In this document: piece after piece, positions 6,615 to 27,737 of the stretch | Layout: each line of letters starts with the position of its first letter | How positions within the stretch are numbered: the first letter of the stretch is position 1 | Assembly: GCA_009929775.1 (NCBI GenBank) | Contig: RZZS01000019.1 | Location: 1-38,338 of the forward strand | Length of the DNA stretch: 38,338 bases | Direction of reading: 5' to 3' | From: Alphaproteobacteria bacterium | Lineage (GTDB): Bacteria; Pseudomonadota; Alphaproteobacteria; Micavibrionales; Micavibrionaceae | The notes under the pieces: model-generated | The model's input: the letters and a program-made list of their open reading frames with translations, nothing else | Told to the model about the DNA's origin: nothing | The model's database searches: none | Translations under genes and position numbers: made by a program

Positions 6615-7253
6615 ATGGGCCATAGCACTCTCAAGCGCAGGGGTTTGATGTTCGTTCTCTCTTCGCCGTCCGGGGCCGGAAAAACCACCGTGACGCGCGC
6701 CCTCCTCAGGAACAACGCTGACCTGGAAGTCTCGGTTTCCGCGACGACCCGCCCGCGTCGGCCCGGCGAAGTCCAGGGTCAGGACTATTATTTCGCAACG
6801 CCGCAGGAATTCGACGAAATGGTCGAGGCGGGCGACATGCTCGAACACGCCAAGGTGTTCGGCCATTATTACGGCACGCCGCGCCGCCCGGTCGAGAGCG
6901 CGCTGAAGGACGGCAAGGACGTTGTTTTTGACATCGACTGGCAGGGGACGCAGCAACTTGCCGAAATCGCCCGCGAGGACCTTGTCACCGTCTTCATCCT
7001 TCCGCCCTCGCGTCAGGAGCTCGAACGCCGCCTGCGCGCGCGCGGCCGCGACACGGACGAAGACATACGGCACCGAATGGATAAAGCCTCGGACGAAATG
7101 ACGCACTATATCGAGTACGACTACGTGCTCGTCAACAAGGACGTCGAGGCGACCATCGAAAACGCCCAGAAGATCCTCGATGCCGAGCGCATGAAACGCC
7201 ACCGCGCCATCGGCATGTCGGATTTCGTCAAGGGCCTGAAACAGGGGATTTGA
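6615..7253 (+). CDS. gmk: Guanylate kinase
   Basis: The 212-residue enzyme phosphorylates GMP to GDP with ATP in the cytoplasm. It has the P-loop SSPSGAGKTT, the GMP-binding region SVSATTRPRRPGEVQGQDYYF, and the lid sequence LEHAKVFGHYYGTPRRPVE, followed by DIDWQGTQQL and PPSRQELERRLRARGRD. The length matches the family. Translation could also start at the Met just before FVLSSPSG, 11 residues in. It is followed 7 bases later by a small gene likely on the same transcript. The usual alphaproteobacterial partners yicC and mltG are absent here. Confidence 0.97.
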   Translation: MGHSTLKRRGLMFVLSSPSGAGKTTVTRALLRNNADLEVSVSATTRPRRPGEVQGQDYYFATPQEFDEMVEAGDMLEHAKVFGHYYGTPRRPVESALKDGKDVVFDIDWQGTQQLAEIAREDLVTVFILPPSRQELERRLRARGRDTDEDIRHRMDKASDEMTHYIEYDYVLVNKDVEATIENAQKILDAERMKRHRAIGMSDFVKGLKQGI

Positions 7254-7655: not shown

Positions 7656-8552
7656 TCACCCGGCCGCCAGCGCCAGCGCGACAAACGCACTGACCGGCAA
7701 CTCCTCGGCGCGCGCGTCAGGTGCAATTCCGACGCCCTCGAAATGATCGGCGTATGCCTTAAGGGACGAACGCACCATCTTGCGGCGCTGCCCGAATGCC
7801 GCCGCTGTGAGGCGCTCGACCGCGCGAAAGCAAGGCTGCGGCCCTTCTAAAGCCCGGGGCGTCAGACGGACGACACTCGACGTCACTTTGGGCGGCGGTG
7901 AAAAGGCTTGCGGCGGAAGGTCGAACATCCGCTCTGCATGGCAAAGCCATTGCGTCAGGACGGACAAACGCCCGTACGTCTTCGAACCCGGCGAGGCCGC
8001 AAGCCTCTGGGCCACTTCTTTCTGGAACATCAATGTCAGGAACGCGTACGCGCCGGGATCCTCGCGAAGATGGGCGAGCCAACCGGTCAGCAGGGGCGTG
8101 GCGATATTATAGGGCAGATTGGCGGCAACCGCCCGCGGCGCGCCCGCAAGCGTACGGAGATCGACCGTCAGCGCGTCGGCATGAACGACCTCCAGCCGAC
8201 CGCCGGATACCGCGACAAGCGGTTGCAGCGCCATAATAGCGCGCGGATCGTACTCGACCGCCGTCAACCGCTCCGCCCCCGCCTTCAACAACGACCGGGT
8301 CAGCCCGCCGGGGCCGGGGCCGATCTCGACAACATGCAGACCCGACAAGTCACCGCACGCGCGGGCGATCTTGTCGGTAATATTGAGGTCGAGCAGGAAA
8401 TTCTGACCGAGCTTCTTCTCGGCCCGCAAATCGTTCGTCGCAATCACCTCCCGCAAAGGCGGCAACCCGTCAATGGGGACACAATAACTTTTTGTGTCCC
8501 CGTTGTCTCCCTGGGGACACAAAAACTTATTGTGTCCCCGATAGGAGGACAT
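7656..8552 (-). CDS. rsmA: 16S rRNA (adenine1518-N6/adenine1519-N6)-dimethyltransferase, with REP-encoded N-terminus
   Basis: RsmA/KsgA dimethylates two adjacent adenines in helix 45 of 16S rRNA. The 298-residue reading frame has LGQNFLLDLNI, the SAM motif VVEIGPGPGGLTRSLL, VVHADAL, and the catalytic NLPYNIATPLL. The family usually starts near DGLPPLREVI, but here the frame opens with 28 extra residues, of which about 5-26 are encoded by two inverted REP-like palindromes. The ATG overlaps the surA stop (TGATG), suggesting coupling by reinitiation; there is no good Shine-Dalgarno upstream. Translation might instead begin at an internal non-ATG codon. pdxA, often between surA and rsmA, is missing. 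Confidence 0.93.
   Translation of the reverse strand: MSSYRGHNKFLCPQGDNGDTKSYCVPIDGLPPLREVIATNDLRAEKKLGQNFLLDLNITDKIARACGDLSGLHVVEIGPGPGGLTRSLLKAGAERLTAVEYDPRAIMALQPLVAVSGGRLEVVHADALTVDLRTLAGAPRAVAANLPYNIATPLLTGWLAHLREDPGAYAFLTLMFQKEVAQRLAASPGSKTYGRLSVLTQWLCHAERMFDLPPQAFSPPPKVTSSVVRLTPRALEGPQPCFRAVERLTAAAFGQRRKMVRSSLKAYADHFEGVGIAPDARAEELPVSAFVALALAAG
8475..8539. repeat. Inverted pair of REP-like palindromes inside rsmA
   Basis: Two 27-base units, 8475-8501 and 8513-8539, each have arms GGGGACACAA and TTGTGTCCCC around a 7-base AT-rich centre. The second is the reverse complement of the first apart from one base in the loop. An 11-base spacer separates them. A head-to-head pair like this is the layout of REP doublets mobilised by REP-associated tyrosine transposases. 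A third copy of the same unit is at 13840-13866. Transcribed, each unit can fold into a hairpin, and the pair can pair with each other. No transposase gene is in the window. Confidence 0.9.
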
Positions 8553-9490
8553 CAGATGCGGTGCTCGATAAAGGCGGTGGATTTGAGGTCGAGGAGCAGA
8601 CGTTGCTGCATGCGGTCTAGCCGCTCAATGCCGATCTGGTTGCGCATGACATTGTCCGGGGGGATGGTATCTTCAGTGATCTGCCGTGCCTTGCGCAGGG
8701 CGACGATATGAAAGCCGCGCGGCGTGCGGATTGGTTCGCTGATCTGCCCTTCTTCCATTGAGGCCAGCGCCGCAGATACCTCCGCCGGAAGCTGGTCGGC
8801 CTGAACCCAGCCGATATCGCCGCCTTTGGACGCTCCCGGCGACTGAGAGAATTGCTGCGCCACGGCCGGGAACGGCGCGCCTTTGCGCAACTCCTGCAGC
8901 AGGCGGCTTGCGAGCGCCCGCACCTCGCCCTCGGGAGACGACGCGTCCGTCGGCAGGAAAATCTCGGACACGAAATATTCGGTCTTGCCGATGGCGGTGC
9001 GCAACTGCTCGCCGCGCGCCGCAACATCCGCATCCGTGACCGCGATCTGGGGATGCAGCTTGCCCTGGACGACACGCGTCCAGGCAATCTGGGCGCGGAT
9101 CTGGTCACGCAGAGTCCGTTCCGGAATGCCGCCCTGCACAAGAACATCCCGGAACTGCTCCGGTGTCATCTTGTTCTGCCCCGCAAGAGACGCGAAAGCC
9201 TCGTCGATATCCTCGCTCGAGACCTCGATATTATTGCGGCGCGCTTCCTGCAGCTTGATGGTTTCCTCGATCAGCATTGTGAGAATCTGTGGTTCGATTT
9301 TCTCGCGCATTTCCCCGGTCTGCGGCAAACCCGACGAAACCGTGATGAGCTTCATCCGGTCGCGCAGATCGCTGGTCGTCACCGCATCCTCGTTGACAAT
9401 GGCGGCGATTCCCTCCTCGCGCGCCTGCGCCGAAGGCATGGCGAAAGCCGAAAAAACAACGAACGCGGCAAAGACTATCAGTCGTTTCAT
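8552..9490 (-). CDS. surA: Periplasmic peptidyl-prolyl isomerase/chaperone SurA
   Basis: The 312-residue protein has a Sec signal peptide (about residues 1-23, cleaved after AQA), a SurA-type N-terminal chaperone domain (IVNEDAVTTSDLRDRM onward), and one parvulin domain at about 165-275 with FPAVAQQFSQSP, GGDIGWV and PIRTPRGFHIVAL. SurA helps outer-membrane proteins fold in the periplasm. E. coli SurA has two parvulin domains; one is normal for alphaproteobacterial SurA. It overlaps rsmA by one base and follows the NDUFA9-like gene by 19 bases, so an operon is likely. lptD, a frequent upstream partner, is not present. Confidence 0.9.
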   Translation of the reverse strand: MKRLIVFAAFVVFSAFAMPSAQAREEGIAAIVNEDAVTTSDLRDRMKLITVSSGLPQTGEMREKIEPQILTMLIEETIKLQEARRNNIEVSSEDIDEAFASLAGQNKMTPEQFRDVLVQGGIPERTLRDQIRAQIAWTRVVQGKLHPQIAVTDADVAARGEQLRTAIGKTEYFVSEIFLPTDASSPEGEVRALASRLLQELRKGAPFPAVAQQFSQSPGASKGGDIGWVQADQLPAEVSAALASMEEGQISEPIRTPRGFHIVALRKARQITEDTIPPDNVMRNQIGIERLDRMQQRLLLDLKSTAFIEHRI

Positions 9491-11342: not shown

Positions 11343-13811
11343 ATGAAGCACCTCTCCTTCCGGGCGGGACTCCTCCTTTCCGCAAATGTTCTCACGCTGT
11401 TGTTCCTTGCTTGCGGTTCGGCCCACGCGTCCGGGGAAACCGCCGTTTTCCTTGAGCGACTCGACGCTGTGGAAAAAGGCCTCGAATCCAAACAGGAAAC
11501 GCTCGACCACATGTGGACGATGATCGCCGCTGCTCTCGTCTTCTTCATGCAAGGCGGGTTTCTTTTGCTCGAAGCGGGAATGGTGCGCTCGAAAAACTCG
11601 ATCAACGTCGCCCAGAAAAACATCGCCGACTTCATCTTCGCGGGCGTCGTCTTCTACCTGATCGGCTTCACGCTGATGTTCGGCCCGTCCGTCGGCGGCT
11701 GGTTCGGATGGGGCATGGATATGGTGGCCTGGAACCAGGTCGAGAACTGGCACTACACGTTCTTCATCTTCCAGCTCGTTTTCTGCGGCACGGCGGCAAC
11801 CATCCTCTCGGGGGCCGTGGCCGAACGCATGAAGTTCGGCGCGTACATTCTCATGTCCTGCCTGCTCGCCGGGCTTGTTTATCCCGTGTTCGGCCACTGG
11901 GCCTGGGGCAACCTGTTCGTCGGCGATAACAGCGGCTACCTGATGGATAAAGGATTCATCGACTTCGCGGGATCGACCGTCGTGCACTCCGTCGGCGGCT
12001 GGGTCGCGCTCGCCGGTGTCATCGTCATCGGGCCGCGCATCGGCAAGTTCAATCCCGACGGCAGTTCGAACCCAATTACCGGCCACTCCTACGCGCTCGC
12101 CACGCTCGGCGCGATTATTCTCTGGATCGGCTGGATCGGATTTAACGGCGGCTCGACGACGGTCGGCTCGCCCGACTTCGCGCCGATCATTTCGAACACG
12201 ATGATGGCCGCATGTTTCGGCGGGCTCGTGTCGATGCTGCTCGGACGCGTCCACGACGGGCTGTTCCGCCCGGACCGGTCGATCAACGGCGTGCTCGGCG
12301 GCCTTGTCGGAGTCACGGCCGGATGCGCCGCCGTCACGACACACGGCGCAATTCTGATCGGCGTGCTGAGCGGATTCACCGTCTTTTATGCGGCGATTCT
12401 CCTTGAAGAAAAACTCAAGCTCGACGATGCCGTCGGCGCGGTTCCGGTTCACGGGTTTTGCGGAGCGCTGGGGACGATCCTTGTCGGCTTCCTTGCCACC
12501 GACGAAAACCTCGCCGCCGCGAGCCGCATGGACCAGATTCTCATCCAGCTTCAAGGAGCGGGCCTTGCCTTCGTCTGGGCGTTTTCGCTGGCTTTCATCG
12601 TCTTCAAACTCCTTCACGTGACCGTCGGCATCCGCGTGTCGCCCGAGGACGAGGAGGAAGGGCTCAACTCCGCCGAACACGGCACGACGCTTGGCACCGG
12701 CCTGCTGCAAAAGCACCTGAAAGACATCGTGTTCGGAGAAGGCGACCTGACCCGCAGGCTTGAAGCAAACACAGGAGACGAGTCTGCCGAGGTCGCCGTT
12801 CTGTTCAACGCCTTCATGGACCGCATCCAGACCTTCGTCGTCGACATCAAGGCCAACGCGCGGGCCCTATATACTTCTTCGCAGGAACTCGCCGAAGTCG
12901 CCACGCACATGGCCGCGAGTTCCGAGGAGCTCACCGCCCAGTCAGCCGTCGTCGCCACTTCGACCGACAAGGTGTCAGAGCGCATGGGCTCGACCTCGAG
13001 CAATATCTCCAGCATCACGAACGACATCAACGTCATTTCGCACAACGCCCTGACCATGTCGCACTCGATTGAGGACATGTCCGAAGCCGTCGGCAAGCTG
13101 ACCGGATCGATCGCGCAAATCGCCGACAACGCGGTCGGAGCGCGCGACGTATCCGTCCAGTCCGCGCAAATGGCGGACGAAGCCTCGCAAGCCGTTCACG
13201 CTCTCGACGAAACGGCGTCCAAAATCGGCGAGTTCGTAACGCTTATCCAGAAAATCTCGGAGCAGACCAACCTGCTTGCCCTCAACGCCACCATCGAAGC
13301 CTCCCGGGCCGGGGAAGCGGGCAAGGGCTTCGCGGTCGTCGCAAGCGAGGTCAAGCAGCTCTCGCAGAAAACCGCCGAAGCCGCGAAGGAAATCGCCGCC
13401 CGCGTCGACGAGATCCAGGCGAGCAGCGCCAACGCTTCCGACGTCATGGCGCGGATCAGCGAGGTCATTCACACGATCAACGAGTCGGTCGGTTCGATTT
13501 CCGAAGCCGCGAGCCTGCAACGTGACGTCGCCTCCAGCATCTCGGAAAAACTCCATCATTCGACCGTGAGCGCAAACGACGTCGCCAGCAGCGTCGAGCG
13601 TATTTCCGGCAAGAGCGCCGAAATCTCCGGCGACATCGAAGTCGTCGCAGGCGAGGCGGGCGCCGTCGCCGAAAACATCAAGGCCTTCTCCGGCGAGGCC
13701 AAAACCACCGCCGAGCAGGCCGGCCGCCTGAACGCCAGCTCCACCACCCTCAACGAAACCGCCAACAAACTCAGCCGCTCCGTCGCCCATTTCAAGACCG
13801 GCGAGGAGTGA
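11343..13811 (+). CDS. Ammonium transporter-methyl-accepting chemotaxis fusion (Amt-MCP)
   Basis: The 822-residue protein joins a full Amt/Rh channel to a chemoreceptor signalling domain. A signal-like segment (1-29) is followed by the Amt core, about 52-450. It keeps the Phe gates (Phe147, Phe267), the Asp in IDFAG (207), both pore histidines (His215 in STVVHSVGG, His370 in VPVHGFCG) and the C-terminal [14 protein letters not shown]-like stretch follows (about 452-505; [18 protein letters not shown]). The coiled-coil signalling domain spans about 515-820 with the hairpin tip [21 protein letters not shown] (~638-658). It should sense or move ammonium and pass a signal to CheA/CheW. No glnK, cheA or cheW gene is nearby. 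AT-rich upstream DNA holds a palindromic operator-like site. Confidence 0.93.
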
Positions 13812-13835: not shown

Positions 13836-13870
13836 CATTGGGGACACAATAACTTTTTGTGTCCCCAATG
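13836..13870. repeat. Single REP-like palindrome
   Basis: A third copy of the rsmA-type unit, with perfect arms extended to CATTGGGGACACAA and its complement (35 bases, 13836-13870), centred on TAACTTT. Its core, 13840-13866, is identical to 8475-8501. It starts 25 bases after the Amt-chemoreceptor stop, where it may act as a transcript-end hairpin, although no T-run follows. A broken partial copy (GGGGACAGACATT, from 13827) lies just before it, hinting that it was once a doublet. Confidence 0.85.
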
Positions 13871-13875
13871 CTGTG

Positions 13876-14361
13876 CTGAAGCTGTCCATCCCCCGCTTCT
13901 GCCCGCCGCTGTTGCCGCCGATGTTGACGACTGTGCGGGGGCCGAATTTGTCGTGCATGACTCGGCAGCCTCTGGAGAAAGGCGACCCCCCACCTTTGTC
14001 CTCCCCCCTTTTCAAGGGGGGAGGTTGGGAGGGTGGTATGCGGCGGGGGGTGAAACCACTCGAATCCCAAAAATGCGCACGGCCCTGACCGTACGCGCTT
14101 AAATCCGTGTTCACCTCGATATGCTCTTCGGGAAGCTCGTCGACAAAGCGTGAGGGAATCGCGTCGATCCAGTTGCCCTACATACGCCGCCTTGCGGCGT
14201 AACTGACGAAAGCGCGTTTGCGCGCGCGGGTGATGCCCACATACGCCAGGCGGCGCTCTTCCTCGAGCCCATTGACTCCGTGCTCGTCCATGGTCTTTTG
14301 CGAGGGAAACAGGCCCGTTTTCCCAGCCGGGGAGAAAGACCGCGTTGAATTCCAGCCCCTT
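13876..14361 (-). pseudogene. Decayed copy of the uvrD 3' end
   Basis: This stretch matches the last ~170 codons of the intact uvrD gene (15440-15966) in the same orientation, with much base divergence. Recognisable pieces in different frames are GLEFNAVFLPGWE, then SQKTMDEHG...GLEEERRLAYVGITRARKRAFVSYAARRRM, then NWIDAIPSRFVDELPEEH, SAYGQGRAHFWDSSGFTP and VMHDKFGP. At least one frameshift separates the first two, and a TAG at 14178-14180 replaces the Tyr codon after AARRRM. It has no start or helicase core, so it cannot make a functional enzyme. It is a remnant left by duplication, or the displaced original 3' end after an insertion. Confidence 0.9.
14000..14024. repeat. Palindromic repeat in the uvrD remnant
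   Basis: CCTCCCCCCTT-TTC-AAGGGGGGAGG forms a perfect 11-base-pair hairpin, within a wider imperfect inverted repeat (about 13986-14037, ACCCCCCACC...GGGAGGGTGG). Sequences of this type are scattered widely in many bacterial genomes. It lies in the region encoding the linker before the C-terminal domain of UvrD, the same place where the intact gene has a different palindromic insert. Confidence 0.8.
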
Positions 14362-15426: not shown

Positions 15427-17664
15427 CTACCCCTCCACCAACTCCACAAAGCTATCCATCACCCGCTTCTGCCCGCCGCGGTCGAAGGCGATGTCAAGTT
15501 TGTGGCCGTCGATGTTGATGACGGTGCCGGGGCCGAATTTGTCGTGCATGACGCGGGCGCCGCGTTTGAAGCCGGAGGCGCTTTCGGTTTGCCCCCTCAC
15601 CCCGGCCCTCTCCCCGGAGGGGCGAGGGGGAGTACGGCGCTGGACGGCCGGGGTAAACCCGCTCGAATCCCAGAAATGCGAGCGGCCCTGACCGTAGGCG
15701 CTTAGGTCCGTGTTGATCTCGATATGCTCTTCGGGCAGTTCGTCGACGAAGCGCGAGGGGATGGCGTCGATCCAGTTGCCGTACATGCGCCGCCGCGCGG
15801 CATAGGAAACGTACGCCCGTTTGCGCGCGCGGGTGATGCCTACATACGCCAGGCGGCGCTCTTCCTCGAGCCCCTTGACTCCGTGCTCGTCCATGGTCTT
15901 TTGCGAGGGGAACAGCCCTTCTTCCCAGCCGGGCAGGAAAACGGCGTCGAATTCGAGCCCCTTCGCGCCGTGCAGCGTCATGATCGAGATCGCCTCGTCC
16001 GCCGCCTCGCCCTGATTTTCGAGCACGAGGGCAATGTGTTCGAGGAATTCGGCCAGCGACTCGAACTCGGCCATCGCCGAAACCAGCTCGCGCAGGTTCT
16101 CAAGACGCCCCGGCGCTTCCGGGCTCTTGTCTGTCTTCCACATCTGCATATAGCCCGATTCGTCGAGAATCTGCGCGGCGAGTTCGGGGTGGGGCATTTG
16201 CCCGACCAGCGAGCGCCAGCGCGCGAAATTGCCGATCAGCGCCGAAAGCGTCACGCGCATTTTCGGCTTTAGTTCGTCCGTTTCGCACAAATGGGAAATC
16301 GATTCACGCAGGGATATCCCTTGCGCGCGCGCGTACGCGTACAGCGTTTGCACCGTGGCGTCGCCGATGCCGCGCTTTGGCGTGTTGATAATCCGCTCCA
16401 GCGCCAGATCGTCGGCGGGTTGCGCCACGACGCGCAGATAGGCCAGCGCGTCGCGGATTTCCAGACGTTCATAGAATCGCTGGCCGCCGATGACGCGGTA
16501 ATTGATACCGAGCTGCATAAACCGTTCTTCGAATTCGCGCGTCTGGAAACCGGCGCGTACCAGAACCGCTATTTGCCCAAGGCTCCAGCCCTTGTGCTGA
16601 AGGCTTTCGGTTTCTTCCGCAACCCACCTCGCTTCGGCCTCGCCGTCCCACAGGCCGCGTACGCACAGTTTCTCGCCGTCCTCGTTCTCGCTCCACAGCG
16701 TCTTGCCGAGCCGTCCCTCGTTGCAGGCGATCACGCCGCTCGCCGCCGCGAGAATGCGCCCCGTCGAGCGGTAGTTCTGCTCGAGCCGGACGATCTTGGC
16801 GCCGGGGAAATCCTTTTCGAACTTGAGGATGTTGCCGACTTCCGCCCCGCGCCAGCCATAGATCGACTGGTCGTCGTCGCCCACGCAGCACACATTCCCG
16901 GTCCCCTTGCCGAGCAGGCGCAGCCACAGATACTGCGCCACGTTGGTATCCTGATACTCGTCGACCAGCACGTATTTGAAACGCCGGTGATAATCGGCAA
17001 GCACGTCGGCATGCGCCGGGTTTTTGAGGATCGTCACCATATGCAGGAGCAAATCGCCGAAATCGCAGGCGTTGATTTGCCTCAGCCGGTCCTGATAGCG
17101 GGCGTAAAGGGCAAGAATATGTCCGTCCGCGGCTTCCGCCCCCTCGCTCTTCGGAACATCCGAAGGATTGAGGCCCTTGTCCTTCCAGCGCTCGATAAAC
17201 CAGATCATCTGGCGCGGCGGCCATTTTTTCGTGTCGAGCCCGCGCTCCTCCATGAGCTGCTTGAGAAGCCGTATCTGGTCGTCGGTATCGATAATCGTGA
17301 AATTCGAATCGAGCCCGACGAGATCGGCATGGCGCCGGAGCATGCGCGCCGCCAGCGCATGAAACGTCCCGAGCCACCAGCCCTCGACGGGCATCCCGTC
17401 CAGAATGGCCGAGACGCGCTCTTTCATCTCCTGCGCGGCCTTGTTGGTGAAGGTCACGGCCAGGATCTGGTTCGGCCAGGACTTGCCGGTCCTCAGGATA
17501 TGCGCAAGGCGGGTGGTAAGCACGCGCGTCTTCCCTGTCCCTGCCCCGGCGAGTACGAGCAACGGCCCGTCCGTCGCCAGCACGGCATCGCGCTGCGGGT
17601 CGTTCAGGCCCTGAAGATAGGGAAAACGCTGGCTTTCGTCGGCAATCACGGCGTGGGCGGTCAT
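15427..17664 (-). CDS. uvrD: UvrD/PcrA-type superfamily 1 DNA helicase
   Basis: I start at MTAHAVIADESQ (745 residues); an upstream Met at 17742 adds 26 residues of no family likeness. The 3'-5' SF1A helicase motifs appear in order: Q motif LNDPQRDAV, Walker A AGAGTGKT, VTFTNKAAQEM, FTIIDTDDQ, VDEYQDTN, GDDDQSIYGWRGA, LEQNYRST, TLHGAKGLEFDAVF and YVGITRARKRAYVSYA. The C-terminal Tudor-like domain (VMHDKFGPGTV...) contacts RNA polymerase in UvrD/PcrA. It unwinds DNA in nucleotide excision and mismatch repair. A GC-rich palindrome has been inserted in frame into the linker before that last domain. The 3' third is also present as a decayed copy at 13876-14361. Confidence 0.95.
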   Translation of the reverse strand: MTAHAVIADESQRFPYLQGLNDPQRDAVLATDGPLLVLAGAGTGKTRVLTTRLAHILRTGKSWPNQILAVTFTNKAAQEMKERVSAILDGMPVEGWWLGTFHALAARMLRRHADLVGLDSNFTIIDTDDQIRLLKQLMEERGLDTKKWPPRQMIWFIERWKDKGLNPSDVPKSEGAEAADGHILALYARYQDRLRQINACDFGDLLLHMVTILKNPAHADVLADYHRRFKYVLVDEYQDTNVAQYLWLRLLGKGTGNVCCVGDDDQSIYGWRGAEVGNILKFEKDFPGAKIVRLEQNYRSTGRILAAASGVIACNEGRLGKTLWSENEDGEKLCVRGLWDGEAEARWVAEETESLQHKGWSLGQIAVLVRAGFQTREFEERFMQLGINYRVIGGQRFYERLEIRDALAYLRVVAQPADDLALERIINTPKRGIGDATVQTLYAYARAQGISLRESISHLCETDELKPKMRVTLSALIGNFARWRSLVGQMPHPELAAQILDESGYMQMWKTDKSPEAPGRLENLRELVSAMAEFESLAEFLEHIALVLENQGEAADEAISIMTLHGAKGLEFDAVFLPGWEEGLFPSQKTMDEHGVKGLEEERRLAYVGITRARKRAYVSYAARRRMYGNWIDAIPSRFVDELPEEHIEINTDLSAYGQGRSHFWDSSGFTPAVQRRTPPRPSGERAGVRGQTESASGFKRGARVMHDKFGPGTVINIDGHKLDIAFDRGGQKRVMDSFVELVEG
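15592..15630. repeat. GC-rich palindromic repeat in frame within uvrD
   Basis: The plus strand reads CCCCCTC (15592-15598) ... CTCCCCGGAG ... GAGGGGG (15624-15630), an inverted repeat of the common dispersed CCCTCACCCCGGCCCTCTCCCC type. On the coding strand it gives about 13 residues, PRPSGERAGVRGQ, in the non-conserved linker of the helicase. It keeps the frame open, so it is tolerated. It is unrelated to the palindrome at the same place in the uvrD remnant. Confidence 0.8.
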
Positions 17665-18667: not shown

Positions 18668-19072
18668 TCACCACGCGACCGCGCGCGATTCGGCCAGCGT
18701 GACGCAGACCGATTCGCCAACGTCCGTGCCCTCATGGGCAAGACATACGTCAGCCTCGTAGAAGCGCCGGATCGGCGAGCGCGTCGCGCAAAACATTTCG
18801 GCGAGAGGGCCTTCCGGCGGAAGCTCCTTCTCCCCGACCAAAACGGAACGAGCTTTCAAGAGCTCGAAATAATACTCCTGAGGGAAATCCGGCAGGACGA
18901 TCGAGTGGAATTCGTCCCGCACGAGAATCGCTTCGTCTCCGCCAAGGACAAGGCGGGGATTGACAGCCATTTCGTCCAGCCCTTCGATGATGATCGAAAG
19001 GCGGCCGAAACCTGTCCGTCTGACTTCGTAGCCGGCTTGCTCGGTCAGTGATGAGTAATCATGGAAGCACAT
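18668..19072 (-). CDS. Orphan family protein, copy A
   Basis: The 134-residue protein starts at MCFHDYSSL, with AGGAG 9 bases upstream. It has no signal peptide or membrane segment. Residues ~15-117 match copy B (19404-19817) at about 70 percent identity by eye: YEVRRTG..RLSIIIEGLDE, NPRL.L.GDEAILV.DE..SIVLP.FPQ.Y, SVLVGEKE and RRFYEADVCLA.EGT. The pattern of short beta-strand-like hydrophobic stretches suggests a small all-beta or alpha/beta domain. The C-terminal tail (GESVCVTLAESRAVAW) differs from that of copy B. I do not recognise the family and infer no function. Confidence 0.75.
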   Translation of the reverse strand: MCFHDYSSLTEQAGYEVRRTGFGRLSIIIEGLDEMAVNPRLVLGGDEAILVRDEFHSIVLPDFPQEYYFELLKARSVLVGEKELPPEGPLAEMFCATRSPIRRFYEADVCLAHEGTDVGESVCVTLAESRAVAW

Positions 19073-19403: not shown

Positions 19404-19817
19404 TTACGATGATACGTTGCTCAAGTTGGCTACGTGAGCTGGCGGACAGCTCCCCGTCTGGTTAGCGATCGTTCCTTCGGACGCCAGACAAACGTCAGCC
19501 TCGTAGAAACGCCGTACGAGAGAACGGGATGCCGAATACAGGCCCGTGACCGGACCTCTCGGGGGCGGCTCCTTTTCTCCCACGAGGACCGAGCTACTCT
19601 GCAACAATTCCGGCAGATATTGCTGCGGGAACTCCGGCAGAACGATCGAGTTTCGTTCGTCGTGAACCAGAATGGCCTCATCCCCGTTGAGAAGCAGACG
19701 CGGGTTGTTCACCTTTTCGTCTAGTCCTTCGATAATGATCGAAAGACGGTTTAGTCCCGTCCTCCTCACCTCATACGTGCTCTGAACGCTCAAATGCGCA
19801 AAATTCCGAAAGCCCAT
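19404..19817 (-). CDS. Orphan family protein, copy B
   Basis: I start at MGFRNFAHLSVQSTYEVRRTG (137 residues) because AGGAGACAAAGGAA precedes it; an in-frame Met 8 codons upstream lacks such a site. It is the paralogue of the 18668 product, about 70 percent identical by eye over ~100 residues, and shares the ending RRFYEADVCLASEGT before a different tail rich in Ser, Asn and Cys. The two genes are in the same direction, each with its own leader and strong ribosome site, so they are probably separate transcripts. The DNA between them shows no obvious repeat. Function unknown. Confidence 0.75.
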   Translation of the reverse strand: MGFRNFAHLSVQSTYEVRRTGLNRLSIIIEGLDEKVNNPRLLLNGDEAILVHDERNSIVLPEFPQQYLPELLQSSSVLVGEKEPPPRGPVTGLYSASRSLVRRFYEADVCLASEGTIANQTGSCPPAHVANLSNVSS

Positions 19818-20010
19818 TTCCTTTGTCTCCTCTCGCTGCAATGTTGATGGTAATCCCTACTATCTGCCGCCAGCCGAGACATCGGGCATTCTTCCCGACC
19901 CGATCCGGGCAACAAAAAGCGAGCGAACTTATCGCGTTTCGTTTCCGCTACTGTCACAAGGTACGGTTATTGATATAGTGAAGTTTTATGACAGGAAAAG
20001 GGGGTAAAAG

Positions 20011-25555: not shown

Positions 25556-26119
25556 TTATCGCTTTATGTCGATGATGGCGCCGTTCGGCACAAGTTCCCA
25601 GATTTCCTCCATGTCCGCGTCCGTGACGGCGATGCAACCGGCCGTCCAGTCCCTGAAAGGATAGGTCAGCTCCTCCCACCAGGACAGACCCGGTCCGATG
25701 CCGTGGATGAAGATGTCTCCGCCAGGCGATGCGCCCATCGAAGCCGCACGAGCGCGGTCGGCATGATTCGGGTAGGAGATGCGCAAGGAAAGGTGATAGT
25801 TCGAGTTCGGATTGCGACCGTTGATCGTATAGCGTCCTTCCGGCGTACGTTTGTCGCCCTGACGTTCCTTGGGCGCGATTCCGCCCTTGCCAAGCGAGAT
25901 GCGATAGCTTTTGATCGGAGTCTGTCCCGCAAAGAGCGTCATGCGCCGCGCGCTCTTGTCGACGAGAATGTAGTCCGCCTGCAGGGCAGTCTTCTTGCCG
26001 TCTTCCGGCAAACGCATAGCCGAGGCGTTCGCGTTCGGACTTCCGAACAGCAATGCGATCGTGAAGACCGCCATAATGAGAGAAGTAATGAGGATGCTGT
26101 CTTCGTTCATGGCTTTCAT
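25556..26119 (-). CDS. L,D-transpeptidase (YkuD family), copy 1
   Basis: Taking MKAMNEDSILITS as the start gives 187 residues with an N-terminal anchor or signal (about 9-32, ending ANASA). The YkuD domain covers ~45-187: ADYILVDKSARRMTLFAG, ISLGKGGIAPKERQGDKRTPEG, FIHGIG, and the active-site loop DWTAGCIAVTDADMEEIW, with the catalytic Cys in AGC and the supporting His in IHG. Such enzymes form 3-3 cross-links in peptidoglycan or attach proteins to it, in the periplasm. The SHGCIR consensus is WTAGCIA here, normal for this branch. It is a paralogue of copy 2 at 27204, on the other side of the ion channel gene. Confidence 0.9.
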   Translation of the reverse strand: MKAMNEDSILITSLIMAVFTIALLFGSPNANASAMRLPEDGKKTALQADYILVDKSARRMTLFAGQTPIKSYRISLGKGGIAPKERQGDKRTPEGRYTINGRNPNSNYHLSLRISYPNHADRARAASMGASPGGDIFIHGIGPGLSWWEELTYPFRDWTAGCIAVTDADMEEIWELVPNGAIIDIKR

Positions 26120-26332
26120 CGTCCCCGCACCCCGCAAGAAGGCGCTTTTTCGTTCGACGTTCGTGGATTGAAAGAGGCTGATACGACAAGCCTGACATGT
26201 CCCGCGTTAACGCTGGCCTAAGTTTCCGGCGGGTTTGGCACGAATTTGAAAAGCATTGTCGGCCGCGCTTGCTTTATTCCAGCGAAAACCCTATATCAGG
26301 CGCCTGATTACCAGCAGCAAGGGTGCAAACAG

Positions 26333-27203: not shown

Positions 27204-27737
27204 TCAGGGGCGAATGGCGATTGGCGTGCCGTCAGGCACTAGTTGCCAGATTTCCCGGACCTCCTCGTTCGTCACGGCGATGCAGCCAAGCGTCCAGTCT
27301 TTCGGCAGACGGGAAAGTTCGTCTTTCGTAATACCGTTCTCGAGTCCATGGATCATGATGTTGCTGCCGGGCGAGACGCCCATCATCCGGGCGCGGTGCT
27401 CATCATCGATGTCAGGATAGGAAATTTTCAGGGACAGATGGTAGGCGCTGTTCGGATTACGCCCCGAAATATAGTAGACACCCTCCGGCGTACGCGCGTC
27501 GCCTTCCTTCACTTTCGGCTCAAGACCGCCCTTGCCGAGCGCGACTTTGTAACGGCGCAGGATACGCCCGTCGCTATAGAGCGTCATCCGGCGCTTGGCC
27601 TTTTCGACAAGGATATAGTCCGCCTTCGCGCCCAAAGCGCCCCAGTTTTCCCGGGAAGCCGAAGCGCTGCCCGGCGAAACGACGAAATACAAAGCGAGAA
27701 AAGCAAAAAAAGCGATGTTTCTGGCGGCTCGGGTCAT
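27204..27737 (-). CDS. L,D-transpeptidase (YkuD family), copy 2
   Basis: The 177-residue protein has a signal peptide (about 1-27, SPGSASA) and a YkuD domain: ADYILVEKAKRRMTLYSDG, ALGKGGLEPKVKEGDARTPEG, SGRNPNSAYHLSLKISYP, IMIHGLENG, and DWTLGCIAVTNEEVREIW with the catalytic Cys in LGC. It is clearly paralogous to copy 1; phrases such as RNPNS.YHLSL.ISYP are shared. Periplasmic peptidoglycan cross-linking is the family role. Its stop is 4 bases from the channel stop, in convergent orientation. Confidence 0.9.
   Translation of the reverse strand: MTRAARNIAFFAFLALYFVVSPGSASASRENWGALGAKADYILVEKAKRRMTLYSDGRILRRYKVALGKGGLEPKVKEGDARTPEGVYYISGRNPNSAYHLSLKISYPDIDDEHRARMMGVSPGSNIMIHGLENGITKDELSRLPKDWTLGCIAVTNEEVREIWQLVPDGTPIAIRP

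Follow-up and report, generated by a model that had tools for sequence, protein, structure and literature searches.

How does a pair of inverted repeats come to lie within the reading frame of rsmA, directly after the surA stop codon, and is it translated there as part of RsmA? The locus belongs to a Micavibrionaceae MAG (2.99 Mb, 190 contigs, 3.72% contamination), and the window, by which we mean the whole stretch of 38,338 nucleotides that was analysed, holds both genes on its minus strand. By its named protein relatives, RsmA groups with Micavibrio. The identities of the two genes rest on domain models: RsmA scores 229 bits against TIGR00755 (ksgA), above the equivalog's curated cut-off of 171, and the upstream gene is called surA-type, its match to the SurA model PRK10770 (E 4e-37) lying under that model's curated cut-off. 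The surA stop TGA (8554-8552) and the rsmA ATG (8552-8550) share one A, as TGATG. Coordinates of the features are collected in Table 1.

Table 1. Features at the surA-rsmA junction and related features elsewhere in the genome (C127 and C72 are other contigs)
Feature	Position	Strand	Basis or content
rsmA (ksgA)	7656..8552	-	298-aa ORF including the REPIN-encoded tail; TIGR00755; PF00398 from residue 44 on
surA-type peptidyl-prolyl isomerase	8552..9490	-	ORF; best match SurA model PRK10770
Probable rsmA start ATG	8550..8552	-	sequence; cheapest predicted opening among in-frame starts
REPIN-coded stretch	8475..8540	-	66 nt; RsmA R5-P26, RGHNKFLCPQGDNGDTKSYCVP, 22 residues
REP unit 1 (first transcribed)	8513..8539	-	first base 12 nt past the surA stop
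REPIN spacer	8502..8512	-	sequence AGGGAGACAAC, 11 nt
REP unit 2, inverted relative to unit 1	8475..8501	-	repeat search
REP foot, 3' side	8471..8474	-	ATTG on the minus strand; CAAT read toward the unit
Start of conserved RsmA block DGLPPLREV	8445..8471	-	residues 28-36; from 43 aligned RsmA proteins
Third, single REP unit of the same family	13840..13866		outside genes; repeat search
mutL	C127:34159-36021		MutL_C, DNA_mis_repair and HATPase domains; frame intact through 620 aa
mutL REPIN	C127:35614-35678 (L004)		65 nt, in frame; encodes RGHNNFLCPQGNIGDTKSYCVP, near-identical to the rsmA REPIN
RAYT-like Y1_Tnp transposase gene	C72:7135-7791		Y1_Tnp 50.6 bits; HVH motif readable

A sequence-only reading had placed two inverted 27-base REP-like units between the ATG that overlaps surA and the DGLPPLREV block, encoding about 22 residues without a frame break, and the coordinates and translation bear out both the layout and the uninterrupted frame. 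Across the 11-nt spacer the two 27-nt units show 96% complementarity, and each is itself near-palindromic, with 10-nt arms GGGGACACAA/TTGTGTCCCC. Such a unit match has an expected count of 0.00 and occurred in none of 100 dinucleotide shuffles of the window. The foot supplies codon I27 as well as the opening base of codon D28. The conserved block (I27-DGLPPLREV), in which L30, P31, P32, L33 and R34 are at least 90% conserved, comes directly after the REPIN-encoded residues with the frame unbroken. The same reading called rsmA an essential-type gene, which is overstated, as ksgA/rsmA is dispensable in E. coli and can be deleted there.

The doublet is a REP pair (REPIN), as had been suggested. 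Across the 2.99 Mb of the genome we found 30 forward matches to the unit at three or fewer mismatches, while a reversed control pattern gave 0 matches at the same threshold. A RAYT-like gene is flanked by units at 7121 and 7779 of its contig; the best NCBIfam model for its protein is REP_Tyr_transpos (NF047646), at 61 bits, which is below the cut-off of 80. The junction doublet thus combines a repeated palindrome, an inverted hairpin-forming pair and a RAYT-like gene flanked by units, the marks of REPs and REPINs, and this RAYT may mobilize the REPINs in trans. Several units sit 5-24 nt from a stop codon. Some supply the last codons and the stop (GTQ*) of genes, the RAYT gene included, and in the same region (C72:5405-8603, L018-L020) REP units form the two ends of a pseudouridine synthase ORF.

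The foot of the family, defined as the four bases before GGGGACAC, sets it apart from described superfamilies. Among 59 unit ends it reads CATC in 14, CAAT in 8, AATC in 5 and CATT in 4, with C at position -4 in 46. The GTAG (or GT[AG]G) foot of the GTAG superfamily does not characterize these 59 ends, nor does the CGTC foot of the CGTC superfamily, which occurs in 2 of them. Palindromes of the general form GGGGACA-N-TGTCCCC are present in 13 of 104 family genomes, and our literature search returned no paper on a GGGGACA REP family. We also considered whether only doublets of a set length occur in genes and rejected the idea, as the other doublets measure 62, 68, 70, 77 and 81 nt and give no clear signal.

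Several other features of the window were recorded alongside. The single REP unit adjoins one edge of a decayed copy (13879-14361, 77% identity) of the 3' end of a uvrD/pcrA-like helicase gene at 15449-15963. On the plus strand, one 822-aa ORF (11343-13811) joins an ammonium transporter domain (PF00909) to a methyl-accepting chemotaxis signalling domain (PF00015), and this fusion is possibly an ammonium-sensing chemoreceptor. On the minus strand lie two paralogous small ORFs with 68% DNA identity and no Pfam match (18668-19072 and 19404-19841), as well as two closely spaced L,D-transpeptidase (YkuD) genes (25556-26137 and 27204-27737).

The surA-rsmA junction was then compared with that of relatives lacking the REP pair. 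RsmA was matched in 97 family genomes, the window's own and 96 others, none of them of the same genus. Only in the window's own genome was the whole REP-encoded stretch aligned, and no RsmA match in the 96 others has the repeat. Their matches begin at residue 19 or later, except for two with weak ends at residues 10 and 14, and at the junctions of these two the sequence is unrelated. The two genes lie next to each other in nearly every relative checked. In relatives they overlap or come close to it, and a GTG in the final codons of surA is often the rsmA start. At 36 junctions of relatives, the position of the surA stop ranges between 8 nt inside and 55 nt ahead of the I27 site; a single junction falls outside this range, at 187 nt. 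The corresponding distance in the window is 77 nt, or 11 nt without the 66-nt insert.

The tail before LPPLR varies among relatives both in sequence and in length (up to about 21 residues), which makes the place of insertion a permissive one. No relative carries the same extension without the repeat; a repeat-free tail of at most 21 residues in one of them is of unrelated sequence. An older in-frame ATG may have been present in this lineage before the insertion.

It had further been claimed that the REP pair sits at the point where pdxA is found in many alphaproteobacteria. In another alphaproteobacterium (L069, PF04166) pdxA does precede rsmA, and to that extent the claim holds. The genome studied here has no PdxA, however, and neither do 37 of the 38 genomes of the order that were searched. 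We therefore rejected a link between the positions of the REP pair and pdxA. As a separate observation, the absence of PdxA from 37 of these 38 genomes suggests that the order lacks this step of vitamin B6 synthesis.

A second in-frame element in the same genome bears on the question of translation. The RsmA query also matched a REP peptide in mutL on another contig, where the insert lies in the N-terminal domain, flanked by TIRTKEH and DGGSGWQI, is read in the same frame as in rsmA, and is missing from all 21 relatives compared. The spacers of both elements are identical at 8 of 11 positions (chance p ~0.001), which makes the two REPINs probable sister copies. Initiation further downstream could not restore MutL, which leaves two options, a broken MutL or a translated REPIN. 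The frame of mutL runs intact to its end, which favours translation, and the genome thus probably tolerates reading through the element. Another REPIN lies upstream of mutL (C127:36134-36201). In each of two other family genomes, a gene contains a single unit in frame: a glucokinase (G021), for which 17 relatives lack the unit, and an alpha/beta hydrolase (G074), a less certain case because the unit falls in a loop of variable length. All four in-frame cases are read as CGG GGA CAC.

Based on these observations, we propose that a REPIN inserted after surA, in frame, and is translated as a near-neutral 22-residue tail of RsmA, an explanation that we regard as quite probable from the sequence comparisons. 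The inverted REP pair, spread by a RAYT-type tyrosine transposase, would have landed some 12 nt past the surA stop, the kind of location that REPs commonly take in this genome. Since rsmA begins at the surA stop in this compact operon, the insert would have hit the N-terminal tail of RsmA, a variable part of the protein. With the frame kept, the insert would be tolerated and translated: ribosomes ending surA would re-initiate at the overlapping ATG and add 22 disordered, REPIN-encoded residues ahead of DGLPPLREV, with a neutral or nearly neutral effect on the enzyme. An AlphaFold model built with 43 sequences is consistent with this. Its mean pLDDT is 90.6, and residues 1-23, with pLDDT below 50, are predicted to be disordered next to an intact enzyme core. 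As a counterpoint, a frame is kept by chance in roughly one in three or four cases, which is not rare.

An alternative, which we consider unlikely, is that the REPIN is 5' untranslated RNA, that RsmA starts at TTG 8465, TTG 8456 or GTG 8447, and that the upstream frame is accidental. Many NH2-terminal REPs elsewhere follow this pattern (PMC3733652), an alphaproteobacterial relative (L076) reads AMPPLREV, and the frame may be open by chance. The candidate starts themselves argue against it. There is no ATG between the REPIN and the conserved block, and all three codons lie inside conserved LPPLREV. They also lack a properly spaced Shine-Dalgarno sequence, as the one GGGAG directly abuts the GTG. 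In RNA folding, their predicted opening costs are 24, 13 and 15 kcal/mol, respectively, compared with 6.3 kcal/mol for the ATG at 8552, ahead of which there is likewise no clear Shine-Dalgarno sequence. Translation is thus predicted to start at that ATG. Given the poor downstream starts, the kept frame, the varying N-termini of relatives and the mutL copy, the in-frame reading of the doublet as the RsmA N-terminus, already put forward from the sequence, is the best-supported model.

We hold a second alternative to be about as improbable as the first: that the REPIN is a selected regulatory hairpin, which makes ribosomes stall as they finish surA and/or controls the amount of RsmA made through re-initiation, or serves as an RNase III site separating the cistrons. 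It is compatible with a translated insert and does not exclude our main explanation. The sequence-only reading had likewise suggested that strong hairpins could shape translation, and the strength of the fold stood up: the doublet is predicted to form a 26-bp stem of -48.3 kcal/mol (z -7.3) beginning 12 nt after the surA stop. In E. coli, REPs reduce translation when fewer than 16 nt separate them from a stop (Liang 2015, as cited in PMC12306157), and the hairpin here falls within that distance. The start codon, however, is not predicted to be more closed, as opening the ATG costs 6.3 kcal/mol with the REPIN and 9.8 kcal/mol without it; closure of the rsmA start by the hairpin was rejected on these values. 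Presence in one genome only offers no conservation in favour of selection, and the mutL sister copy and the copies near unrelated genes suggest random insertion. Regulation by the hairpin is plausible from the folding model, and it may have some effect on surA or rsmA output. Far more speculative, and in our view very improbable, is a combined idea in which this REP family with its CATC/CAAT foot is repeatedly accepted as coding in the RGH frame while a translated regulatory hairpin at surA-rsmA links outer-membrane chaperone output to ribosome maturation.

Finally, an assembly chimera, with contigs joined at the repeated 27-mer, is hardly credible: the fragmentation and contamination of the MAG and the roughly 30 copies of the unit would allow one, but the conserved surA-rsmA adjacency marks the junction as native, and its spacer is unlike those of other doublets.

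The insert is most likely translated as part of RsmA, and the event is real but of an already described kind; what is new is the CATC/CAAT foot and the well-supported sister copy in mutL. The closest precedent is the work on intragenic REPs of the GTAG- and CGTC-tagged families, 20-40 bp palindromes found mostly near gene ends, in which in-frame dimers code for 20-30 residues, many of them in DNA repair genes, and REP termini can supply stop codons (PMC3733652). The elements described here share the palindromic units near gene ends, the in-frame dimer, the stop-supplying termini and a DNA repair gene among the hosts. They differ in the foot, in which C at -4 is the rule and CGTC rare. That study reports a CGTC REP family in M. 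aeruginosavorus, and its main text does not mention mutL or rsmA. It also cautions that NH2-terminal REPs in other species are often misannotations and may be untranslated. The mutL copy lies in the N-terminal ATPase region, where start misannotation cannot explain it, and it adds weight to the N-terminal reading of RsmA, a type set aside as doubtful in those species.

Three other systems offer partial parallels. Like the REPIN/RAYT system, in which the REP doublet was proposed as the mobile unit (PMC3116915), this one has inverted doublets that form hairpins and a transposase gene flanked by units; that system is mainly extragenic, whereas the family here is low in copy (about 30 units, many of them singlets) and has intragenic cases. 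In tnpAREP subclass 2.4, REPs are inserted in frame in presumed loops with the reading frame kept (PMC6006769), but the host there is the transposase itself, and here the hosts are cellular genes. Rickettsia palindromic elements (RPEs) likewise lie in frame in conserved genes and are absent from orthologues, as our inserts are (mutL against 21, rsmA against 96). An RPE-bearing guanylate kinase of Rickettsia is translated and active (PMC2229807). The RPEs of that study measure 105-146 bp, while the rsmA insert has 66 nt and is of REP type, and its genome carries a RAYT-like gene between units of the same kind. Against this background, the present genome provides a clear pair of in-frame sister REPINs. 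It brings Micavibrionaceae, and a REP foot that fits neither of the two described superfamilies, into the range of protein-coding palindromes, and it allows one to test what a REP insertion costs a mismatch-repair gene.
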